From: Anaerococcus murdochii
GTDB taxonomy: Bacteria; Bacillota; Clostridia; Tissierellales; Peptoniphilaceae
Assembly: GCF_019957155.1 (NCBI RefSeq)
Contig: NZ_JAIPME010000002.1
Location: 1,426,001-1,490,000, forward strand
Direction: 5' to 3'
Length of the DNA stretch: 64,000 nt
The first letter of the stretch is position 1. Each line of letters begins with the position of its first letter. Shown here in pieces: positions 34,602 to 46,387 of the stretch. The notes beneath the pieces were generated by a model, which saw only the letters and a list, made by a program, of their open reading frames with translations, made no database searches and was not told where the DNA came from. The translations under genes and the position numbers were made by a program.

Positions 34602-35282
34602 TTAGTCTAAAACCAAATCAGTAAGTCTAAGTGGTTCGATATATTCATCGCCCTTGTAGACTCTCATGTTGCCGCCAGATATTTCATCTATTAGGATGAC
34701 TTTGTCATTTTCATCTAGGCCGAATTCTAGTTTTATATCATAAAGGTCAAGATTTTTTTCTTTTAGGATGTCACGGATTATGCCGCAAATTTCTTTTGTA
34801 AGCCTTTTTAGTTCTTCATATTGGTCAGCTGTTGCGATATTTAGAACTTCTAGGCAGTCTTTAGAAATTGTAGGGTCGCCTGCTGCGTCATCTTTGATTG
34901 TTACTTCAAAAAATGCGTCAAGTGGAGCGCCTTCTTCTATGTATTTGCCGTATCTTTTGTAAAAAGATCCTACAGCCCTGTATCTGCAAATAAATTCAAG
35001 ACCCTTGCCAAATACTCTAGCTTTTCTAACTTCCATTGTGTTTTCACTTACATTTGCTTTTACATAATGGGTTGGGATATTTTTTTCATTTAGTTTATTA
35101 AAGAAAAATTCTGTCATCCTAAGACCTGCATTGCCTGCGCCTTCTATTGATAGGCCGACTTGGTTTTCACCTGGGTCAAAAACGCCGTCCTTGCCTGTAA
35201 CGTCGTCTTTAAATTTCATCAAGATGTTGCCATTTTCGAGGCTGTAGATGTTCTTAGTCTTGCCTTTGTAAATTAAATCCAT
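34602..35282 (-). CDS. purC: Phosphoribosylaminoimidazole-succinocarboxamide synthase (SAICAR synthetase)
   Basis: A 226-residue enzyme joining CAIR and aspartate with ATP, the eighth step of IMP synthesis. KGKTKNIYS at the N-terminus binds ATP; SVEYVCR-type and GLKLIDFKLEFG-type segments appear as GLEFICRYRAVGSF and LYDIKLEFGLD, followed by LIDEISGGNMR. AAGGAG precedes ATG 35282. It is transcribed away from the purE operon, with 182 bp between the two starts, so the purine genes are split into divergent units that could share a control region. I saw no purine riboswitch there. Confidence 0.93.
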   Translation of the reverse strand: MDLIYKGKTKNIYSLENGNILMKFKDDVTGKDGVFDPGENQVGLSIEGAGNAGLRMTEFFFNKLNEKNIPTHYVKANVSENTMEVRKARVFGKGLEFICRYRAVGSFYKRYGKYIEEGAPLDAFFEVTIKDDAAGDPTISKDCLEVLNIATADQYEELKRLTKEICGIIRDILKEKNLDLYDIKLEFGLDENDKVILIDEISGGNMRVYKGDEYIEPLRLTDLVLD

Positions 35283-35405
35283 TATTTTCTCCTTATACAT
35301 TTACAATAATGATATAATACTTACGACTTTCTTACAAATAAATTTTATTTACTAAGAATAATTTGTCAAGCCGACTTCATAAAAAATTTAATTTTCACTT
35401 TACCA

Positions 35406-35464: not shown

Positions 35465-35944
35465 ATGTCAAAAATAGCTGTCATAATGGGTTCAAAATCT
35501 GACTACAAGACTATGAAAGAGTGCTGTGCTGTACTTGATAAGTTTGGCATAGACTACGATAAGAGGGTTGTTAGTGCGCATAGGACACCTGAGTTAATGG
35601 TTGACTTTGCGAAAAATGCTAGGAAAAACGGCTACAGCCTTATTATTGCTGCGGCTGGTGGTGCTGCACATTTGCCAGGTATGGTTGCTGCGTCAACTAC
35701 TCTACCTGTGATTGGTGTCCCAATTAAATCATCAACCCTAAACGGCGTTGACTCGCTTCTTTCTATTGTGCAAATGCCATATGGTGTGCCTGTTGCAACC
35801 ATGGCTATAGGAGAGGCAGGTGCAAAAAACGCTGCTATTACTGCCCTTGCAATTCTTGCTATAAACGACGAAAAATTAGCAGAAAAGTACAGGGATTTTA
35901 AAATTGAATTAGAAAATATAGTAAAGGAAGATATGAAAATATGA
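35465..35944 (+). CDS. purE: N5-carboxyaminoimidazole ribonucleotide mutase
   Basis: A 159-residue class I PurE that moves the carboxyl group of N5-CAIR to C4. [10 protein letters not shown] (9-18), SAHRTPE (38-44) and [13 protein letters not shown] (59-71) form the active site, including the essential His. It works with PurK, whose start overlaps its stop by four bases. First gene of the purine operon. Confidence 0.95.
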
Positions 35945-36981
35945 TCAAGACTATATTACCCAAAAGCACTATCGGTATAATCGGTGGCGGCCAACTTGGA
36001 AGGATGCTCGCTATGAGCGCAAAGGAAATGGGCTATAAAGTAGCAATTCTAGATCCGGGTGAAGACGCCTGCGCAAGAAAATTTGCAGATTATTTTATCC
36101 ATAGTGCTTTTAATGTATACGAAAATATCGAAAAACTTTGCAAAATGAGTGATGTAGTGACTTTTGAGTTTGAAAATATAGATATAGAGTCCTATAAGAA
36201 ACTTGAAAATAAGTACAATTTCGTCCAATCTTCAAGGCTTTTGGAAATTAGTCAGCACAGGCTAAGAGAGAAGGAATATGCCAAATCACTTGGGATTCCA
36301 ACTGTAAAATACTTTGATGCAAACATTGACGATTACGATATTAACGGCAAGTATGTCATGAAAACCACCAGGTTTGGCTATGACGGCAAGGGGCAAAAAA
36401 TTATTTCTTCAAATGAGGAAGTTGAAAAAGATACTATCCTTGAAGAATTAATCAACCTTGATAAGGAGATTTCTGTAGTTGCTGTTAAGGATATCGAGGG
36501 AATCGAGATTGTGGCTGTGGTTGAAAATGAACACAGAAACAACATTCTCTATAGGTCAAATATTCCAGCAAGAATTACAGAGGACCAAGAAGCTAAGGCT
36601 ATCGATTATACAAAAAGAATCCTAGCCGACAATGACTATTATGGAGTTCTTACAGTTGAGTATTTCATATCAAATGGAGAGGTAATTTTCAATGAGATTG
36701 CCCCAAGAGTGCACAATTCTGGCCATATTACCCAAGAATCAGCGACCAAATCCCAATTTAGGGCCCACATAGAAGGTATTTGCGGACTTAAGGTAGGAAA
36801 AATCGAAAACAGGGAAGCGACTTTATATAATATCCTAGGCCAAAACGAAGAATATTTTATAAACCTAATCACCAAGAAACAAGGCTACCTTCACTTATAC
36901 GAAAAGGAAGCTCGCCACAACAGGAAAATCGGACACATGAACTTTTTAGGAAGCGTATATTTGGAGGATGACTTTGAATAA
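35941..36981 (+). CDS. purK: N5-carboxyaminoimidazole ribonucleotide synthetase
   Basis: A 346-residue ATP-grasp enzyme that carboxylates AIR with bicarbonate and [15 protein letters not shown] (12-23), the ATP-grasp loop [11 protein letters not shown] and [16 protein letters not shown] are intact. It overlaps purE by ATGA and runs into the start of purL, so the three should be translated in step. The length is a little under that of E. coli PurK (355). Confidence 0.93.
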
Positions 36982-39900
36982 AAGAATATTTGTACAAAAA
37001 AGACCAGCCTATGACAGGGAAAGTGAAAATTTAAAAAATCTTTTTAATAGGGACTTTGATCTAGACTTAAAAGACCTTAAGACTTATGTAATCTACGACC
37101 TTTATAACATAAGCGATGACCTTTATGAAAAATCAAAAACTAGAGTTTTTTCAGAAATAATGACAGACCAGGTTTTTGAAGAACTTGATTTATCTGGCAG
37201 AACATACATAGCCTACGAAACCCTCCCAGCCCAATATGACCAAAGGTCAGACTCTGCAATGCAGGCCCTAAAGTTAATTGACGATAAGGTAGATGTCTTG
37301 GTAAGGGCAGGCAAACTTGTTGTTTTAGACGGGGAAGTTTCAGAGGAAAAACTAAAAGAAATTAAAAAATACCTTATAAACCCAATCGAATCAAGCGAAA
37401 AAGACCTTGGTAAAATGGACTTTGCCATAGATTCACAGATGAAACCTCTAAAAGATTTAAGAGGTTTTAGGAATTATGGAAAAGAAGAATTAGAAGGACT
37501 TATTAAAGACCTTTCTCTAGCCCTAGATTTAGAAGATTTAGAATTTATCCAAGACCATTACAAAAAAGAAGAAAGGGATCCAAGTGAAACTGAAATCTAC
37601 GTCCTAGATGTATTTTGGTCTGACCACTGCAGGCACACAACCTTTGAAACAAGCCTTGATGAGGTAAAAATCAGCTCAAAACTTTTCCAAAAGGAAATGC
37701 AAGACGCCTTTGATTATTATTTGAAATTAAGGGAAGAACTTGGAATTACAAAGGCAATTAGGCTTATGGATATGGCATCAATCTTTGGCAAATACCACAC
37801 CAAGGTTTTGGGCGATACCAATATTGAAGTTTCTGAAGAAATTAACGCTTGTTCCTTCTTTACAGAAATTGAAAATAAGGGCAAGAAGGAAAGGTGGCTT
37901 ATCCAATTTAAAAACGAAACCCACAACCACCCTTCAGAAATCGAGCCATTTGGCGGTGCTTCAACCTGTATAGGCGGTGCCATCAGAGATCCACTTTCAG
38001 GAAGGTCCTATGTTTACCAAGCTATGAGGGTGTCAGGTGCGGGCAATATCCTAGAAAAAAGAGAAGAAACCCTTGCCAACAAGCTACCACAAGTTGAAAT
38101 TTCAAAGGGTAAGGCCTTAGGAAATTCTTCTTATGGTAACCAAATTGGCCTTGCGACTACCTTTGTTAGAGAAATCTACGACCCTTCTTATGTTGCAAAA
38201 ACCATGGAAGTTGGGGCAGTTGTAGGAGCTGTTAAAGACGGTGATTACAAGAGAGAAGAGCTTGTTCCTGGTGATATAGTTGTCATGATTGGCGGCAGAA
38301 CTGGTCGTGACGGCATCCAAGGAGCGTCAGGATCATCTGTAATCCACGATGACTCATCCCTAACTACAGCTTCAAGTCAGGTTCAAAAGGGAAACCCAGT
38401 CGAAGAGAGAAAAATCCAAAGACTCTTTAGAAAACCAGAAGTCACAAGACTTGTCAAAAAATCAAACGACTTCGGTGCTGGTGGTGTATCTGTAGCCATA
38501 GGCGAGCTTTCAGAAGGTATTGAAATCTTCCTTGACAGGGTTAAAACCAAGTATAAGGGACTTAATCCAACTGAAATAGCTATTTCTGAATCTCAGGAAA
38601 GAATGGCAGTAGGTATAGATAAAAAAGACTACGAGGCCTTTGTAAAAGAGTGTGAGAAAGAAAATCTCGAATACGTTCACGTTGCAAACATAACCGACAG
38701 AAACCGCCTAGAAATGTACTACGAAGACGCAAAAATTGTAGACTTTAGCGCAGAATTTTTAGCAACAGCAGGTGTCAGAAAACACGCCCAGGCAGATTTG
38801 GTTGATAATGTAAGGGAAAATCCTTTTGTCAAAAAAGAAGTCACTAAGGAAGCAATCCTAGATGAGCTAAAAGATTTAAATGTGACCAACCAAAAGGGTA
38901 TGGTTTCAATGTTTGACTCAACAGTAGGTGCCCAAACAGTAATGATGCCATTTTCAGGCAAGGAAAGGATAACTCCAGTCCAAGCCTCAGTTGCAGCCAT
39001 TCCGACACTTTATTCAACACCAGATACAGCGACCATATTGGCCTACGGTTTTATACCAAAGATTTCAAAATATTCTCCATTCCTATCAAGCATTTACGCA
39101 GTATTAGAATCTGTGGCAAAAGTTTATGCGGTTGGTGGAAATAAGGAAGATTTGTACTTCTCCTTCCAAGAATATTTTGAAAAACTCTTAGATGACCCAG
39201 AAAAATGGGGCAAGGTAAGCCAGGCAATGCTTGGTTCAATCATAGCCCAAAGGGAAATTGGTAGACCTTCTATAGGTGGAAAAGACTCAATGTCAGGATC
39301 TTTTAACGACCTAAATGTAGTTGAAACCTTGATTTCCTTTGCATGTACACCAGTAAAAATCGAAGACGTAATTACACCAGACCTTAAAAAAGTCGGTAAT
39401 AAATTATATATAATAGAAATAGAAAAAGACGAAAAGGCCTATCCAAACCTAGCTAAGGCCATGGCAGACTTTGAGAAATTAAATTCTTATATCAAGGATA
39501 AAAAGGTCGTTTCCGCTTATGTCCAAGATTTTGGATCAGTCACTTCATCCTTAATCAAGATGTCTTTAGGAAATAAATTAGGATTTACTATTGATTATGA
39601 CAAGGCCCTTGATTTCAATCCTTGCTCAATCGTCGTAGAATCTAATTGTGATTTAGACTTTAAGGAAATTGGTAGGGTGAGCGAAGAAATTTCTATAAAT
39701 GGAATTAAAATCGACCTTGATGATGCTGAAAAATCCTACATGTCAACCTTAGAGGAAATCTATCCAACCTACTACAACAAAAATGATGGTAAGGTTGAAA
39801 ATCTCGTATCAGAAAAAACTGAAGCTGTCTATTACAAGGAAAAAGTTGATGAGGTTAAGGTAGTAATTCCAGTATTTCCTGGCACTAACTCAGAATACGA

Positions 39901-40636
39901 TACCCAAAAGGCCTTTGAAGAGGCAGGCGCATCTGTAACTCAAGTTGTCTTTACAAATACAAAGGAAGACGATATTGAAAAATCAATCGATGCCTTTGTT
40001 AAGGAAATTAAATCTTCCCACATCATAGCCTTCCCTGGTGGATTTTCTGCAGGTGATGAGCCAGATGGGTCAGCGAAATTTATAGTAAATATCCTAAAAA
40101 ATGACAAGGTAAAAGATGCAATTCACGCCCACCTTGCTGACAAAAAGCTAATCCTTGGTATTTGTAACGGCTTCCAAGCCCTTATAAAATCTGGACTTTT
40201 ACCTTATGGAAAGATCACAGACCTTGACGAAAACGACCTAAGCCTCTTTAGGAATGTTGGTTTTAGGCATATATCAGATACAGCTATTACTAGAGTGGCA
40301 TCTACCAAGTCACCATGGACCCAAGGATTTGAAATTGGTGACCTTCATGAACTTGTATTTAGCCACGGAGAAGGAAGACTCGTTGGAAATAATATAGAGA
40401 AATTCAAACACCTTGCAGCCTTCCAATATGTAGACGCCGATGGGGATGCGACCTTAAACGGCAAATACAATCCAAATGGATCAGCCCTAGCCATAGAGGG
40501 AATGGTGAGTGAAGATGGTCTAATATTAGGAAAGATGGGCCATTCAGAAAGGTCTTACAAGACCCTTTACAAAACCAATACCCTAAAGGATAGGCAAGAC
40601 ATATTTAAAAATGGTGTGAAATATTTTACTAGATAG
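36974..40636 (+). CDS. purL: Phosphoribosylformylglycinamidine synthase, single-chain
   Basis: A roughly 1220-residue fusion of synthetase and glutaminase domains, converting FGAR to FGAM with glutamine and ATP. FKNETHNHPSEIEPFGGA is the synthetase motif. The C-terminal class I glutaminase has an intact triad: Cys in LGICNGFQA and His/Glu in FSHGEGRL. It therefore supplies its own ammonia, unlike the PurF of this operon. The likely start is TTG at 36974, six bases after GGAGG; an ATG at 36968 directly abuts that site. There are no separate purS or purQ genes. It overlaps the end of purK by eight bases. Confidence 0.94.
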   Translation: MNKRIFVQKRPAYDRESENLKNLFNRDFDLDLKDLKTYVIYDLYNISDDLYEKSKTRVFSEIMTDQVFEELDLSGRTYIAYETLPAQYDQRSDSAMQALKLIDDKVDVLVRAGKLVVLDGEVSEEKLKEIKKYLINPIESSEKDLGKMDFAIDSQMKPLKDLRGFRNYGKEELEGLIKDLSLALDLEDLEFIQDHYKKEERDPSETEIYVLDVFWSDHCRHTTFETSLDEVKISSKLFQKEMQDAFDYYLKLREELGITKAIRLMDMASIFGKYHTKVLGDTNIEVSEEINACSFFTEIENKGKKERWLIQFKNETHNHPSEIEPFGGASTCIGGAIRDPLSGRSYVYQAMRVSGAGNILEKREETLANKLPQVEISKGKALGNSSYGNQIGLATTFVREIYDPSYVAKTMEVGAVVGAVKDGDYKREELVPGDIVVMIGGRTGRDGIQGASGSSVIHDDSSLTTASSQVQKGNPVEERKIQRLFRKPEVTRLVKKSNDFGAGGVSVAIGELSEGIEIFLDRVKTKYKGLNPTEIAISESQERMAVGIDKKDYEAFVKECEKENLEYVHVANITDRNRLEMYYEDAKIVDFSAEFLATAGVRKHAQADLVDNVRENPFVKKEVTKEAILDELKDLNVTNQKGMVSMFDSTVGAQTVMMPFSGKERITPVQASVAAIPTLYSTPDTATILAYGFIPKISKYSPFLSSIYAVLESVAKVYAVGGNKEDLYFSFQEYFEKLLDDPEKWGKVSQAMLGSIIAQREIGRPSIGGKDSMSGSFNDLNVVETLISFACTPVKIEDVITPDLKKVGNKLYIIEIEKDEKAYPNLAKAMADFEKLNSYIKDKKVVSAYVQDFGSVTSSLIKMSLGNKLGFTIDYDKALDFNPCSIVVESNCDLDFKEIGRVSEEISINGIKIDLDDAEKSYMSTLEEIYPTYYNKNDGKVENLVSEKTEAVYYKEKVDEVKVVIPVFPGTNSEYDTQKAFEEAGASVTQVVFTNTKEDDIEKSIDAFVKEIKSSHIIAFPGGFSAGDEPDGSAKFIVNILKNDKVKDAIHAHLADKKLILGICNGFQALIKSGLLPYGKITDLDENDLSLFRNVGFRHISDTAITRVASTKSPWTQGFEIGDLHELVFSHGEGRLVGNNIEKFKHLAAFQYVDADGDATLNGKYNPNGSALAIEGMVSEDGLILGKMGHSERSYKTLYKTNTLKDRQDIFKNGVKYFTR

Positions 40637-40656
40637 ATTTTTTATAAGGAGTAAGG

Positions 40657-42072
40657 ATGTTTGGAATTTGGAATATAGAAAAGGCTCCAAGTGTTGCCTT
40701 TTATGCCCTTCACGCCCTTCAACACAGGGGCCAACAAGGTGCAGGAATTGTCTCAACAGAAAGAACTAGACTTAGGGGATACAGAAATGTTGGTCTCTTA
40801 GCAGATGTTTTTAAGGATAATGGAAAACTAGAAAAAATCGATGGATCAGCTGCCTTGGGTGCCCTTTGGTACTCAAGCGGCAATTCTACCAACGTTCAAA
40901 ATATAGAACCACTTTTGTATAAATTTAACGACGGCCACCTAGGAATTGCCATGAACGGAAATTTAAATAACGCCAAATGGTTAAGAGCCGAGCTTGAAGA
41001 TGAGGGAGCAGTTTTCCACTCAGAAAGCCATGCAGAAATCATCATGCACCTAATTAGAAGGTCCAGAAAAGAAAGTATCGAAGAAAGATTTAAGGAAGCT
41101 TTAAACAAGCTTAAGGGATCATTTTCTGTAATGCTTCTAACCCAAGATGCCTTATATGGTGCCGTTGATAGACACGCAACAAGGCCTCTAGTCCTTGGAA
41201 AACTCGGAGATTCTTACACAATCGCTTCGGAGTCTTGTGCCCTAAATGTTATTGGAGCAGACTTTCTAAAGGATATTTCTGCTGGTGAAATTATAAAAAT
41301 TGACGATGAAGGTTACGAAATAGGAAGCTTCACAGAAGCGTCAAATATAGCCATCGAATCCATGGAATTTATTTATTTTGCAAGGCCTGACTCAACCATC
41401 CTTGGCAAAAACGTCCACATAGTAAGGAAAAATACCGGTAGGGTTTTGGCGAGAGAATATCCTGTGGAAGCTGACATAGTTGTCGGTGTACCAAATTCTT
41501 CATTATCTCTTGCAACAGGTTATGCGGAAGAAATCGGCCTTCCATACGAGATGGGCCTTATCAAAAACCAATACATAGGAAGGACCTTTATCGAGCCTTC
41601 CCAAAATCTTAGGGATATTGCAGTAAAGATGAAATTATCAGCTCTTTCTGATGTTGTGAGAAATAAGAGGGTAATCCTACTTGATGACTCAATCGTAAGA
41701 GGCACTACCTCAAAGAGAATCATTTCCATGCTTAAAAAGGCAGGAGCAAGCGAAGTTCACTTAAGGATAGGTTCACCAGAGATAATCTTCCCATCTTTTT
41801 CTGGAATTGATATGAAAACCTCCAAGGAACTAATCGCTGCCAACCTTACAAAAGACGAAGTAAGGGATTTGATCGGTGCAGATAGTTTGGAATTTATAAG
41901 TGTTGAAGGCCTTAAGGAAGCGGTTGGCTTTGACTTTGACAGTCCAAATAAGGGAATTTCCCTAGATATTTTCACAGGCGACTATGTCGAAGGCTTAGGA
42001 AATTACGAAGAAGAATTTAAGGCGGAACTTACAGATATACAAAAAGAATTTTTAGCAAAGGGGAGTAAATGA
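40657..42072 (+). CDS. purF: PurF-like amidophosphoribosyltransferase with a degenerate glutaminase domain
   Basis: The 471 residues align throughout with Bacillus-type PurF, which makes phosphoribosylamine from PRPP and glutamine. The PRPP loop LLDDSIVRGTTSK (341-353) and KNQYIGRTFIEPSQ are kept. The glutaminase half is not: the N-terminus is MFGIW, with no propeptide and no Cys nucleophile; Trp71 replaces the substrate-binding Arg and His125 the Asp, while Asn100-Gly101 remain. Fe-S ligand positions read Glu234, Ser380, Lys432 and Ser435. The only Cys is 194. In-frame sequence upstream of the ATG is TAA-GGA-GTA-AGG, so no missed cysteine start exists. I infer an ammonia-dependent enzyme. 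Comparison with B. subtilis PurF is from memory. Confidence 0.85.
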   Translation: MFGIWNIEKAPSVAFYALHALQHRGQQGAGIVSTERTRLRGYRNVGLLADVFKDNGKLEKIDGSAALGALWYSSGNSTNVQNIEPLLYKFNDGHLGIAMNGNLNNAKWLRAELEDEGAVFHSESHAEIIMHLIRRSRKESIEERFKEALNKLKGSFSVMLLTQDALYGAVDRHATRPLVLGKLGDSYTIASESCALNVIGADFLKDISAGEIIKIDDEGYEIGSFTEASNIAIESMEFIYFARPDSTILGKNVHIVRKNTGRVLAREYPVEADIVVGVPNSSLSLATGYAEEIGLPYEMGLIKNQYIGRTFIEPSQNLRDIAVKMKLSALSDVVRNKRVILLDDSIVRGTTSKRIISMLKKAGASEVHLRIGSPEIIFPSFSGIDMKTSKELIAANLTKDEVRDLIGADSLEFISVEGLKEAVGFDFDSPNKGISLDIFTGDYVEGLGNYEEEFKAELTDIQKEFLAKGSK

Positions 42073-43073
42073 GCGAGAAATACAAGGCGGCAGGTGTTAG
42101 CCTAAATGCCGGTTATGAATCAGTTGAGAGAATAAAAAAACACGTCGAATCCACAAAAAACAAGGGCATGATGGATATGATTGGATCTTTTGGCGGAGCC
42201 TTTGACCTTTCTGCCTACGGTTTTAAAAATCCAGTTCTTGTTAGCGGGACAGACGGGGTTGGAACCAAGCTTAAGCTTGCTTTTGACATGGATAAGCACG
42301 ACACAATCGGCATCGACGCTGTTGCCATGTGTGTTAATGACATCCTTGCCCAAGGCGCAATTCCACTTTTCTTCCTAGACTACATTGCCTGTGGCAAAAA
42401 CGACCCAGCCCAAATCGAAGCTATTGTAAAGGGTGTGGCTGATGGTTGTAGGCAGGCGGGGGCAGCTTTAGTAGGCGGGGAAACTGCTGAAATGCCAGGT
42501 TTTTATAAGGAAGGCGAATACGACATAGCAGGTTTTGCTGTTGGAGCTGCCGAAAAGGAAGATTTAATAAATCCAGAAAACACAAAGCCTGGCCAAGCGG
42601 TAATTGGTATTCCATCTACTGGTTTTCATTCAAATGGATTTTCACTAATTAGAAAGGTCCTAAAGGATGAAAATATAAGCTTAAATGACGAATTTAACGG
42701 GGAAACCATTGGCGAGGCCCTATTAAGACCTACAAGGATCTACGCTGAGGAAGTAAAAACTTTATTAGAAAATGTAAAGATTGCTGGCATTTCCCACATC
42801 ACAGGTGGTGGCTTTATAGAAAACCTACCAAGAGCCCTCAAAAAAGGTCTGGGCATGAAAATTTACAGGGATTCTTATGAGGTTCCAGAAATTTTCAAGT
42901 TTATTGAAGAAGAAGGCAAAATCGATCACGACGAGATGTACCAAGTCTTTAATATGGGAGTAGGCCTTGCAGTAATTGTTGATGATGCTGACAAGGAAAA
43001 AGTCCTTGACCTAATCGACGACGCCTTTATCCTAGGAGAAGTCACAGATCAGGAAGGAATCGTCCTTCTATGA
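42069..43073 (+). CDS. purM: Phosphoribosylformylglycinamidine cyclo-ligase (AIR synthetase)
   Basis: A 334-residue enzyme closing the imidazole ring of AIR with ATP. YKAAGVSLNAGYESVERIK at the start, SGTDGVGTKLKLA (about 59-71), GGETAEMPGFY and HITGGGFIENLPR are all family motifs. GGGGAG lies before the ATG, which overlaps the purF stop by four bases. The product feeds PurK and PurE. Confidence 0.95.
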   Translation: MSEKYKAAGVSLNAGYESVERIKKHVESTKNKGMMDMIGSFGGAFDLSAYGFKNPVLVSGTDGVGTKLKLAFDMDKHDTIGIDAVAMCVNDILAQGAIPLFFLDYIACGKNDPAQIEAIVKGVADGCRQAGAALVGGETAEMPGFYKEGEYDIAGFAVGAAEKEDLINPENTKPGQAVIGIPSTGFHSNGFSLIRKVLKDENISLNDEFNGETIGEALLRPTRIYAEEVKTLLENVKIAGISHITGGGFIENLPRALKKGLGMKIYRDSYEVPEIFKFIEEEGKIDHDEMYQVFNMGVGLAVIVDDADKEKVLDLIDDAFILGEVTDQEGIVLL

Positions 43074-43633
43074 AAAAAATAGGAATATTTGCCTCTGGGA
43101 CAGGCACAAACTTCGATGCTTTGGCAAGTTCAGATGAGATAAAAAAACTGGCAGACATTGAAATCATGGTTTGCGACAAGCCTGGAGCCAAGGTTATAAA
43201 AAAAGCTGAGGATAAAAATATTAAGACCTTTGTCTTTAATCCAAAAGACTATGACAATAAGGCAGCCTACGAAAAAGAAATCTTAGAAAAGGTAAAAGAC
43301 CTAGATTATATTTTCCTAGCAGGTTATATGAGGATTTTATCTAAAGATTTTCTAGAAAAATTTAAGGGCAAGGTGGTTAATATACATCCTTCCCTCCTTC
43401 CAAAATATAAGGGCATAGAGTCAATCAAAAGGGCTTACGAAGCGGGAGAGGAATATATCGGAGTTACAATCCATTACGTAAACGAAGAAATCGACGGCGG
43501 AGAAATCCTCGCGCAAGATAAGTTTAAGGTTGATTATACAAAGAGTCTAGATGAGATAGAAAGTCAGGTTCATGACCTAGAGCATAGGCTTTACATAAAG
43601 ACAGGAGCAGAAATCTTAAAGGGGGAAAAATGA
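43070..43633 (+). CDS. purN: Phosphoribosylglycinamide formyltransferase
   Basis: A 187-residue enzyme transferring a formyl group from 10-formyl-THF to GAR. GIFASGTGTNFDAL (4-17), the catalytic NIHPSLLPKYKG (about 103-114) with its Asn and His, and the Asp in EIDGGEIL match the family. It overlaps purM by ATGA and purH by four bases. The formyl donor is made by the Fhs encoded at the end of this operon. Confidence 0.94.
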   Translation: MKKIGIFASGTGTNFDALASSDEIKKLADIEIMVCDKPGAKVIKKAEDKNIKTFVFNPKDYDNKAAYEKEILEKVKDLDYIFLAGYMRILSKDFLEKFKGKVVNIHPSLLPKYKGIESIKRAYEAGEEYIGVTIHYVNEEIDGGEILAQDKFKVDYTKSLDEIESQVHDLEHRLYIKTGAEILKGEK

Positions 43634-45147
43634 AAAGAGCATTGATAAGTGTGAGCGATAAGGCTGGTGTTGCAGATTTTGCCAAAGGTCTTGTGGCAAA
43701 TGGTTTTGAAATAATTTCTACAGGTGGGACTTTAAACCACCTTAGGGAAAATGGAGTTGATTGCATTTCCATAGAAGACTACACAGGATTTCCAGAAATT
43801 TTAGAAGGTAGGGTAAAGACCCTTCATCCAAAAGTTCATGGTGGTCTTCTTTCAAAAAGAGATAATGATAGCCATATTGAAGAGCTTAAGGCCAATGAGA
43901 TAGGCTATATAGACCTAATTTGCGTTAATCTTTATCCTTTCGCAGAAACCCTTGCTAAAGTTGGGGTAAGCCATGATGAAATAATTGAAAACATCGACAT
44001 CGGTGGTCCTTCTATGCTAAGATCTGCTGCAAAAAATTATAAATTTGTAACAGTTGTCACAGATAAAAATGACTATGAAACTATTCTTAAGGAATTAGAA
44101 GAAAAGGGAGAGACAAGCCTAGAAACAAGACAAAGGCTTGCAGGCAAAGTTTTTAGCAAAACAGCCCAATACGATTCTCTAATCGCTTCTTATTTTAATA
44201 AAATAAATGGAAGTGAAGAAACTTTGAATTTAACATTTAGATTAGAAGACGAACTAAGGTATGGAGAAAATCCTCACCAAAAAGCGGCCTTCTACGTTTC
44301 AGACGAGGAAGTTTCCTATGCCCTTCAAGATTGTGTCCAATTACATGGCAAGAAAATGTCTTACAACAATATCCAAGACGCCTCAGCTGCCCTTGATATT
44401 TTGCAAGAATTTGACGAGACAGTTTGTGTTGGCCTTAAACACATGAACCCATGCGGGGTTGCCACAGGAAAGACTGTTTATGAGGCATGGACTAGGGCTT
44501 TTGAAGCAGATCCTGTTTCTATTTTTGGTGGAATTGTTGCTATTAACGGCACAATTGATAAGAAAACTGCAGAAAAAATGCACGAAATTTTCCTTGAAAT
44601 AATTCTTGCCTATGACTACGAAGACGAAGCCCTAGAAATCCTAGAAAAGAAGAAAAACGTTAGAATTTATAAGATTCCAAAGAAAACTAATAAAAATCCA
44701 AAATTAATAAAATCTGTAAGAGGCGGAATCCTAGTCCAAGATTACGATGACAAGGTTTTTGAAAAACTAGAAACAGTTACAGATACAAAGGTCAGCAAAG
44801 AAGACCTAAAGGACCTAGAATTTGCCTACAAGATTGTAAAACACGTCAAATCAAATGCAATCTTACTTGCCAAGGACGGCCAAACTGTAGGTGTGGGTGC
44901 TGGTCAAATGAATAGGGTAGGTGCAGCTGAAATTGCCTTTAAACAAGCAGGCGATAAGGCAAAGGGCGCAGTCCTTGCATCAGATGCTTTCTTCCCATTC
45001 AGGGATAGCGTTGATGAGGCAGCGGGACACGACATCAAGGCCATCATCCAACCAGGTGGATCAATAAGAGACCAAGAATCAATCGAAGCTTGTAACGAAA
45101 ACGGCATAGCCATGGTATTTACTGGTATGCGCCACTTTAAACATTAA
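43630..45147 (+). CDS. purH: Bifunctional AICAR transformylase / IMP cyclohydrolase
   Basis: A 505-residue enzyme for the last two steps to IMP. The N-terminal cyclohydrolase (about 1-190) has ALISVSDKAG, STGGTLNHL and GRVKTLHPKVHGG; the C-terminal transformylase has RYGENPHQKAAFY, the catalytic KHMNPCGVATG and the end GGSIRDQESI...MVFTGMRHFKH. GGGGG precedes the ATG. It needs 10-formyl-THF. Length is normal and no motif is lost. Confidence 0.95.
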   Translation: MKRALISVSDKAGVADFAKGLVANGFEIISTGGTLNHLRENGVDCISIEDYTGFPEILEGRVKTLHPKVHGGLLSKRDNDSHIEELKANEIGYIDLICVNLYPFAETLAKVGVSHDEIIENIDIGGPSMLRSAAKNYKFVTVVTDKNDYETILKELEEKGETSLETRQRLAGKVFSKTAQYDSLIASYFNKINGSEETLNLTFRLEDELRYGENPHQKAAFYVSDEEVSYALQDCVQLHGKKMSYNNIQDASAALDILQEFDETVCVGLKHMNPCGVATGKTVYEAWTRAFEADPVSIFGGIVAINGTIDKKTAEKMHEIFLEIILAYDYEDEALEILEKKKNVRIYKIPKKTNKNPKLIKSVRGGILVQDYDDKVFEKLETVTDTKVSKEDLKDLEFAYKIVKHVKSNAILLAKDGQTVGVGAGQMNRVGAAEIAFKQAGDKAKGAVLASDAFFPFRDSVDEAAGHDIKAIIQPGGSIRDQESIEACNENGIAMVFTGMRHFKH

Positions 45148-45148
45148 T

Positions 45149-46387
45149 ATGGCAAGGGTATTAGTAGTAGGAAATGGCGGCAGGGAGCATGCCATTTCTG
45201 ATAAATTATATAGGGAAGGCCACGAAATATTTATGCTGGGAGAAAATCCTGGCGTGGCCCAGTTTGGAACATGCATCACTTGCGAGGTCGGAGAGCTTCC
45301 AGCTTTTTGCAAGGAAAATGCAATTGACCTGGTTTTTGTAGGTCCAGAAGCCTTTTTGGTTGACGGAATCGTAGACCTTTTAGAAAAAGAAAATATTAGG
45401 GTCTTTGGCCCAAATAAGGCCGCTGCCATCCTTGAAGGCTCAAAGGCTTTTGCCAAAGATTTGATGAAAAAATATGACATACCAACAGCATCCTATGAGA
45501 CTTTTACAGATTACGAAAAAGCTCTAGCTTATGTTGAAAAATCTGAGTTTCCTTTGGTAATCAAAGCTGATGGAATAGCTGCAGGTAAGGGTGTAATTAT
45601 TGCCCAAGATCTCGAAGAGGGAAGAGAAGCCCTCAAAGAGATTATGGTTGATCAGAAATTTGCAGAAGCTGGTGCATCTGTTGTTATAGAAGAATTTCTT
45701 GAGGGAGAAGAATTTTCCCTCCTAGCCTTTGTGTCAGGCGAAATAGTTATGCCTATGAAGGTTGTCCAAGACCACAAGAGGGCCTATGACAACGACCAAG
45801 GCCTAAATACTGGAGGCATGGGCGTTTATATGCCAATTAAGCACATCACTGACGCAGATATTGAAGAAGCCTTAGAAAAGGTCCTAAAACCAACAGCTAA
45901 GGATATGATTAAGGAAGGCCGCCCATTTAAGGGAATCTTATTTGCAGGCCTTATGAAAACCAAGGATGGAATAAAAACTATAGAATACAACGTCCGTTTT
46001 GGTGACCCTGAGACAGAAATTATCCTCTTGTCTATGGAAACTTCCCTTTACGACTTGGCTCAGGCAGTCCTAGACGGTAGGGAAATGGAAATTAAGTGGA
46101 AGGATAGGGCCTATATAGGAGTTGTCCTTGCATCAAAGGGTTATCCAGAATCCTATGAGAAAGGTTTTGAAATTACAGGTCTTGACGGCCTTGATTCAAA
46201 AGTTTTCCATATGGGTACAAAGGAAAGTGACGGAAAGATTCTTACAAATGGCGGCAGGGTTTTAATCGTGTGTGCCGAAGGAGAAACTTTGGCAGAAGCG
46301 AGAGAAGCCGCCTATAGGGACGTTGAAAAAATCAAGTGTGACAATCTTTTCTATAGAAAAGACATCGGACATTTATCATTAAAGTGA
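45149..46387 (+). CDS. purD: Phosphoribosylamine-glycine ligase (GAR synthetase)
   Basis: A 412-residue ATP-grasp enzyme joining phosphoribosylamine and glycine. VVGNGGREHAIS (5-16), KADGIAAGKGV, GGMGVYMP and EYNVRFGDPETE are the family motifs. It consumes the unstable product of PurF. It has no clear ribosome site of its own and begins one base after the purH stop, so coupled translation is likely. The terminal 30 residues are short of C-terminal extensions seen in some homologues. Confidence 0.94.
   Translation: MARVLVVGNGGREHAISDKLYREGHEIFMLGENPGVAQFGTCITCEVGELPAFCKENAIDLVFVGPEAFLVDGIVDLLEKENIRVFGPNKAAAILEGSKAFAKDLMKKYDIPTASYETFTDYEKALAYVEKSEFPLVIKADGIAAGKGVIIAQDLEEGREALKEIMVDQKFAEAGASVVIEEFLEGEEFSLLAFVSGEIVMPMKVVQDHKRAYDNDQGLNTGGMGVYMPIKHITDADIEEALEKVLKPTAKDMIKEGRPFKGILFAGLMKTKDGIKTIEYNVRFGDPETEIILLSMETSLYDLAQAVLDGREMEIKWKDRAYIGVVLASKGYPESYEKGFEITGLDGLDSKVFHMGTKESDGKILTNGGRVLIVCAEGETLAEAREAAYRDVEKIKCDNLFYRKDIGHLSLK

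Follow-up and report, generated by a model that had tools for sequence, protein, structure and literature searches.

PurF carries out the step that commits a cell to purine synthesis, and textbooks use it to illustrate how ammonia released from glutamine is channelled. The B. subtilis-type enzyme (TIGR01134; PDB 1gph and 1ao0) joins an N-terminal Ntn glutaminase domain to a C-terminal phosphoribosyltransferase (PRTase) domain with the PRPP loop, and possesses Cys1, a propeptide and Fe-S ligands. In E. coli PurF, Arg73 binds the carboxylate of glutamine and Tyr74 forms one wall of the ammonia channel (PMC7953260), and replacement of Cys1 by Ala or Ser leaves no detectable glutamine activity while ammonia can still be used (PMC3261824, citing Mei and Zalkin 1989). 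The nearest precedent we found is the crenarchaeal PurF', a PurF homologue that lacks Cys1 and is encoded close to pur genes. According to the same 2011 paper, every genome with PurF' also has a Cys-bearing PurF, and PurF' was proposed there to use ammonia.

The window, that is, the whole 64,000-nucleotide stretch of Anaerococcus murdochii DNA analyzed here, holds the gene run purE-purK-purL-purF-purM-purN-purH-purD-fhs, with purC upstream and divergently oriented. No gene is broken between purE and purD, and purF presumably has the same place in the pur operon of B. subtilis. The names of purF, purL, purC and purD were checked with profiles, purC scoring below its own cut-off. The features are as follows.

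34602..35300, minus strand: purC variant, with DEISGGNMRVYK replacing DEISPDTCRLWD (TIGR00081, 128.6 bits; cut-off 189.9)
35465..35944, plus strand: purE, named by sequence recognition
35941..36981, plus strand: purK, named by sequence recognition
36968..40636, plus strand: purL, FGAM synthase in its fused form, glutaminase nucleophile motif LGICNGFQ retained
40645..40647, plus strand: TAA, in frame, 9 bases before the purF ATG (from the sequence)
40646..40651, plus strand: AAGGAG, which probably serves the MFGIW start as ribosome-binding site (from the sequence)
40657..42072, plus strand: purF, encoding a PurF homologue of 471 aa that starts MFGIW (match to TIGR01134)
40867..40869, plus strand: TGG, Trp71, at the position of the glutamine-carboxylate Arg (from the alignment)
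41029..41031, plus strand: CAT, His125, at the position of Asp127 (from the alignment)
41680..41709, plus strand: PRPP-binding loop LDDSIVRGTT, intact (from the sequence)
42069..43073, plus strand: purM, named by sequence recognition
43070..43633, plus strand: purN, named by sequence recognition
43630..45147, plus strand: purH, named by sequence recognition
45149..46387, plus strand: purD (TIGR00877, 499.8 bits)

Judged from its sequence, the purF product is a PurF by descent that lacks the features defining a glutamine-dependent PurF. It scores 415.5 bits against TIGR01134, the NCBI purF equivalog (cut-off 350; residues 1-443), a model that accepts it as an ordinary amidophosphoribosyltransferase, and it aligns over its full length, with the same two domains, to B. 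subtilis PurF (chain 1gph; E 1.6e-145). This alignment starts at residue 3, leaving Cys1-Gly2 of the B. subtilis protein without a counterpart; the propeptide is absent too. Because of the in-frame TAA 9 bases 5' of the ATG, no upstream start could supply Cys1, and no in-frame upstream start for purF exists either in the window or in six related loci (L003-L008). Arg72 of B. subtilis PurF (Arg73 in E. coli) is replaced by Trp71, and Asp127, which we take to have a glutamine-binding role, by His125, while Asn102-Gly103 (B. subtilis numbering) is retained. The Fe-S cysteines 236, 382, 434, 437 and 440 have become Glu, Ser, Lys, Ser and Ile, respectively. The PRPP loop is intact. An earlier note, made from the letters of the window, had described the MFGIW start without possible rescue, Trp71 and His125 at the glutamine-binding Arg and Asp positions, the replacement of all Fe-S cysteines, the intact PRPP loop and the position between purL and purM, and the alignments bear out this description throughout. 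As in the E. coli C1A and C1S proteins, no glutamine use would be expected of the window PurF while ammonia use would be kept; in contrast to that engineered single change, the state seen here is natural, fixed in a clade and accompanied by loss of the glutamine pocket.

A six-frame search of the 2.25 Mb assembly (99.68% complete) matched purF at the window gene and at one 610-aa frame, which was rejected as a second purF because it reads as GlmS. The second intact purF that the earlier note had proposed to look for was thus not found in this genome, and the window gene encodes the only PurF detected there. This contrasts with the crenarchaeal situation, in which a Cys-bearing copy accompanies PurF'; the likeness to PurF' noted here is one of features.

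To place the protein among its relatives, 5.8 billion proteins were searched and 7,997 candidates scored. At the top of the best 120 of these stand 19 clusters (P0001-P0019), 64-83% identical to the window PurF, and all 19 begin with MF and no Cys, whereas the other 101 carry ECG before VFG or IFG. An alignment of the window protein, the 19 clusters and the six loci comprises 26 rows, 25 of them distinct, from Anaerococcus, Helcococcus and relatives (three genus codes, g1, g4 and g20). Cys1 is absent from every row, and none keeps any of the four scored Fe-S cysteines. The position of Arg72 is occupied by Trp in 26/26, as against Arg in 40/40 Cys-bearing PurFs of the family, and that of Tyr73, by alignment the equivalent of E. 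coli Tyr74, by Tyr in 26/26. Elsewhere the pocket varies, with N in 11, S in 13 and F in 2 rows at position 102 and H in 12, D in 10 and N in 4 at position 127. A fixed Trp next to varying Asn102 and Asp127 positions indicates that the glutamine pocket has been abandoned and the Trp retained. The PRPP loop DDSIVRGTT is present in all 26 rows, one of which reads DDSVVRGTT, and purF lies between purL and purM-purN in all seven clade loci (the window and L003-L008). Among named species, Anaerococcus lactolyticus and A. degeneri come nearest, at 95% identity. Sequencing error, chance and a misplaced start are excluded by the in-frame TAA together with the recurrence of the same state in 26/26 clade rows, in other genomes and in named strains.

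The loss of Cys1 extends well beyond this clade. In the family, 120 genomes were searched, 115 gave a match and 109 PurF loci were read (29 obtained with the genome search itself and 80 retrieved in addition); a fragment (L180) was left out, and a frame-broken gene (L167) was kept out of the tree and the residue table and counted as Cys elsewhere. Position 1 of the 108 readable family PurFs is Cys in 41, Ser in 47, Gly in 13 and Ala in 1, and is deleted in 6; adding the window brings the PurFs without Cys1 to 68 of 109. Of the 13 Gly cases, ten belong to a remote type, hereafter GG-type, that starts M-GGFFG or M-GAFFG. Within the genus of the window, 20 of 21 genomes, the window's included, have a PurF, in all 20 cases without Cys1. 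These genus PurFs fall into three groups in a whole-protein tree (4 of the MFGIW type, 13 of the Ser type and 3 of the short Ser type) and into four in a tree of the PRTase domain, where one Ser row (L119) is set apart. Each of the two trees requires a minimum of 12 switches between Cys and non-Cys; if only losses are allowed, the Cys-less clades number 20 on the PRTase tree and 15 on the whole-protein tree. The trees alone do not tell loss from gain, and loss is preferred because Cys1 is the general state, being present in 40 of 41 readable canonical-branch loci of the class. The remaining one lacks it, six more class loci are of the GG-type and two (L281, L282) are unreadable there. Outside the family but within the order, 9 of 46 loci read lack Cys1. 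The order and class sets are partly best-scoring and partly chosen, hence non-random, and the order set includes three second copies. The earlier note had seen in the window protein a single PurF branch; that branch exists, and the state is much wider across the family.

It had also called a joint loss of the oxygen-sensitive cluster and the glutaminase not known to be described. A Cys-less PurF' and the ammonia hypothesis were published for Crenarchaeota in 2011 (PMC3261824); titles and opening lines of abstracts in the open-licence literature yielded no description of a Cys-less PurF in this family, of a Cys-less PurF that recurs as sole copy through a bacterial family or of a purine pathway without PurB. 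Repeated glutaminase loss with the domain kept is a natural experiment that bears on what this domain does and on the conditions under which a cell can rely on free ammonia.

The residues of the glutamine pocket follow the fate of Cys1. Cys-bearing family PurFs keep Arg72 in 40/40, Tyr73 in 40/40, Asp127 in 39/40 and Asn102 in 33/40 cases, compared with 27/51, 29/51, 30/51 and 1/51, respectively, in PurFs with Ser, Gly or Ala at position 1. Such decay where Cys1 is gone is the pattern predicted by loss of glutaminase function. Position 102 is Asp in 7/40 Cys-bearing and 49/51 Ser/Gly/Ala family PurFs, and the change from Asn102 to Asp may be an intermediate towards glutaminase loss. In genus g23, where Cys1 is present in 11 of the 13 PurFs read at position 1 (L167 included), purF is split or frame-broken in two genomes, at L167 (G112) and L180 (G022).

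A joint loss of the Fe-S cluster and the glutaminase, as the earlier note had envisaged, does not hold. Of the four scored Fe-S cysteines, two or three are missing in each of four Cys-bearing relatives of the Gemella type (about 55-58% identical), those at 236 and 382 being already gone in this type (genus g21), and 31 of the 51 Ser/Gly/Ala family PurFs keep all four. These two patterns rule out coupling; on the sequences compared, Fe-S loss is separate from glutaminase loss.

Divergence of the glutaminase domain was compared with that of the PRTase domain. At a PRTase divergence of 0.2-0.3, the ratio is 1.46 in the window clade, and in the same bin Cys-bearing PurFs give 1.47 (family), 1.43 (Enterococcus/Bifidobacterium type) and 1.32 (order and class). 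Relaxed decay of the domain in the window clade is accordingly little or none. The short Ser clade (20 members) reaches 1.38, against 1.19 and 1.13, at a divergence of 0.4-0.5, a weak relaxation. The near-normal relative rate suggests that the Cys-less domain probably still has a role. Most simply, it probably closes the PRPP site and shapes the ammonia path, and it may do more than serve as a scaffold.

Glutaminase loss in PurF is not general to these cells, as other glutaminases keep their Cys. GlmS, whose glutaminase is of the same type as that of PurF, retains MCG in all 19 readable cases among 20 loci taken from genomes in which PurF is Cys-less, GuaA of the window genome keeps GICYGHQ, and the GICNGFQ motif of PurL is present both in the window and in L003-L008. 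By raw counts, which ignore shared descent, glutamine synthetase (PF00120) is found in 34/41 genomes with a Cys-bearing PurF, 20/58 with a Cys-less PurF of the canonical branch and 9/10 with the GG-type, and GlmS, counted from strong matches, in 39/41, 27/58 and 9/10, likewise. Matches are thus lacking in 38/58 (glutamine synthetase) and 31/58 (GlmS) of the Cys-less-PurF genomes. This distribution suggests a broader retreat of these genomes from glutamine as a source of nitrogen, a trend that the GG-type genomes do not share; without Cys1, yet with glutamine synthetase in 9 of 10, the latter argue against a simple link between the two. The window genome itself has both a glutamine synthetase match (a 690-aa frame) and GlmS, so a glutamine shortage is not forced there.

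Taken on its sequence context, the window PurF, as the only PurF of its cell, is probably an ammonia-dependent PRPP aminotransferase. Its C-terminal phosphoribosyltransferase site, which is intact, would make phosphoribosylamine from PRPP and free NH3, and the N-terminal Ntn domain, having lost glutamine hydrolysis, would probably persist to support or close off the active site and the ammonia path. The likely source of ammonia would be amino-acid fermentation: Peptoniphilus relatives are described as users of peptone and amino acids (PMC3813181), so free ammonia should be plentiful. If PurF does use free ammonia, metabolic models of such anaerobes would carry the wrong nitrogen source at this step. 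The earlier note had left the choice between free ammonia and a partner glutaminase. In the latter case a glutaminase would dock on PurF and feed it ammonia, like PurQ for PurL; the Ntn domain, evolving at a near-normal relative rate, could be the docking surface, and the fixation of Trp71 in 26/26 clade rows also speaks for a partner. Against this, the class I profile (PF00117) matches only GuaA and a 260-aa peptidase-C26-like ORF in the window genome, by which a free-standing class I partner was rejected; neither CTP synthase nor the small subunit of carbamoyl-phosphate synthase is among these matches. Moreover, no additional gene was seen to recur next to Cys-less purF in flanks of about 3 kb or less per side, in which pur genes and fhs were the only ones labelled. 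We therefore regard a partner as improbable; of the two options in the earlier note, comparison supports a glutaminase-less, ammonia-using enzyme.

A decaying PurF in a pathway out of use would fit the failure to find purB and purA in the window genome, but is still less credible, given the unbroken purE-purD operon, the PRPP loop intact in 26/26 clade rows, a relative domain rate near that of Cys-bearing PurFs and a clade spanning three genus codes. Ntn hydrolases with Ser nucleophiles exist, and Ser is the commonest replacement of Cys1 (47 of 108 family PurFs), which could mean that the protein is still an amidotransferase, with Ser1 as nucleophile in lineages starting MSG or with another amine as donor. 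This is the least credible of the alternatives: a Ser1 nucleophile is impossible for MFGIW, Asn102 has become Asp in nearly all Ser/Gly/Ala PurFs and Arg72 and Asp127 are often lost, and the C1S protein of E. coli is without detectable glutamine activity (PMC3261824).

Two further enzymes of purine synthesis were not found in the window genome. For PurB, TIGR00928 has just two matches, a fumarase-like protein and a 479-aa aspartase-like one, neither of which reaches the cut-off, PF00206 returns the same two (C2:827280-829663; named from motifs) and a 44-aa scrap below cut-off, and ADSL_C (PF10397) has no match in this genome and matches in 2/26 in the genus. PurA was not found in it either. 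Nevertheless, purC, purH and the rest of the pur operon are present. In the family, where PurB is equated with an ADSL_C match, the profile misses 3/14 controls and other kinds of PurB could escape. In raw counts of matches above cut-off (37/39 for ADSL_C and 20/21 for PurA), ADSL_C occurs in 20/41 genomes with a Cys-bearing, 6/58 with a Cys-less and 10/10 with a GG-type PurF, and PurA in 13/41, 0/58 and 6/10, respectively. As ADSL_C is also missing in 21/41 Cys-PurF genomes, Cys1 loss and PurB absence are linked loosely at best.

The type of PurC goes with the absence of ADSL_C. Among PurCs encoded in purF loci and long enough for comparison, plus that of the window (L175 and L179 being dropped for length), the variant type with DEISGGNMRVYK for DEISPDTCRLWD accounts for 14/14 from genomes without ADSL_C, while 28/29 from genomes with ADSL_C are not of this type; the exception (L185) comes from a genome that also has PurA. 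The window PurC carries DEISGGNMR, and DE[IV]SGGNMR is present in 119 of its best 120 database relatives, the other one being a 182-aa entry. In the 14 variant proteins the Lys of LDKD is always Pro, and the Arg four places on is Ser in 10, His in 3 and Thr in 1. These two residues are the putative equivalents of Lys228 and Arg232 in human PAICS. Lys228 and Arg232 are among four residues that bind the aspartate carboxylates in that enzyme, the others being Thr40 and Lys191 (PMC9376930), the equivalents of which look kept in the variant. On the other hand, Arg215 of E. coli PurC, perhaps the same Arg, is described as CAIR-contacting (PMC3261824), which would weaken the aspartate-binding reading. 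Missing PurB and variant PurC would open an alternative route to AICAR: possibly, the variant PurC would take ammonia and give AICAR directly. A rival explanation for the missing PurB is that the aspartase-like protein acts as SAICAR lyase. Combining both steps, we put forward, as a tentative and rather doubtful extension, that the purine pathway of these amino-acid-fermenting anaerobes might have exchanged amide and aspartate donors for free ammonia at two steps, at PurF to form phosphoribosylamine and at the variant PurC to convert CAIR and NH3 to AICAR, which would render PurB, and with salvage PurA, dispensable.

The GG-type PurF-like proteins share the absence of Cys1 with the window PurF, but form a far branch (24-30% identity) in which the Fe-S cysteines are kept and the PRPP loop reads RGTQ, both in 10/10 family rows. 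In 10 family genomes the top-scoring PurF match is of this type (L182-L191, L283-L288), and pur genes adjoin it.
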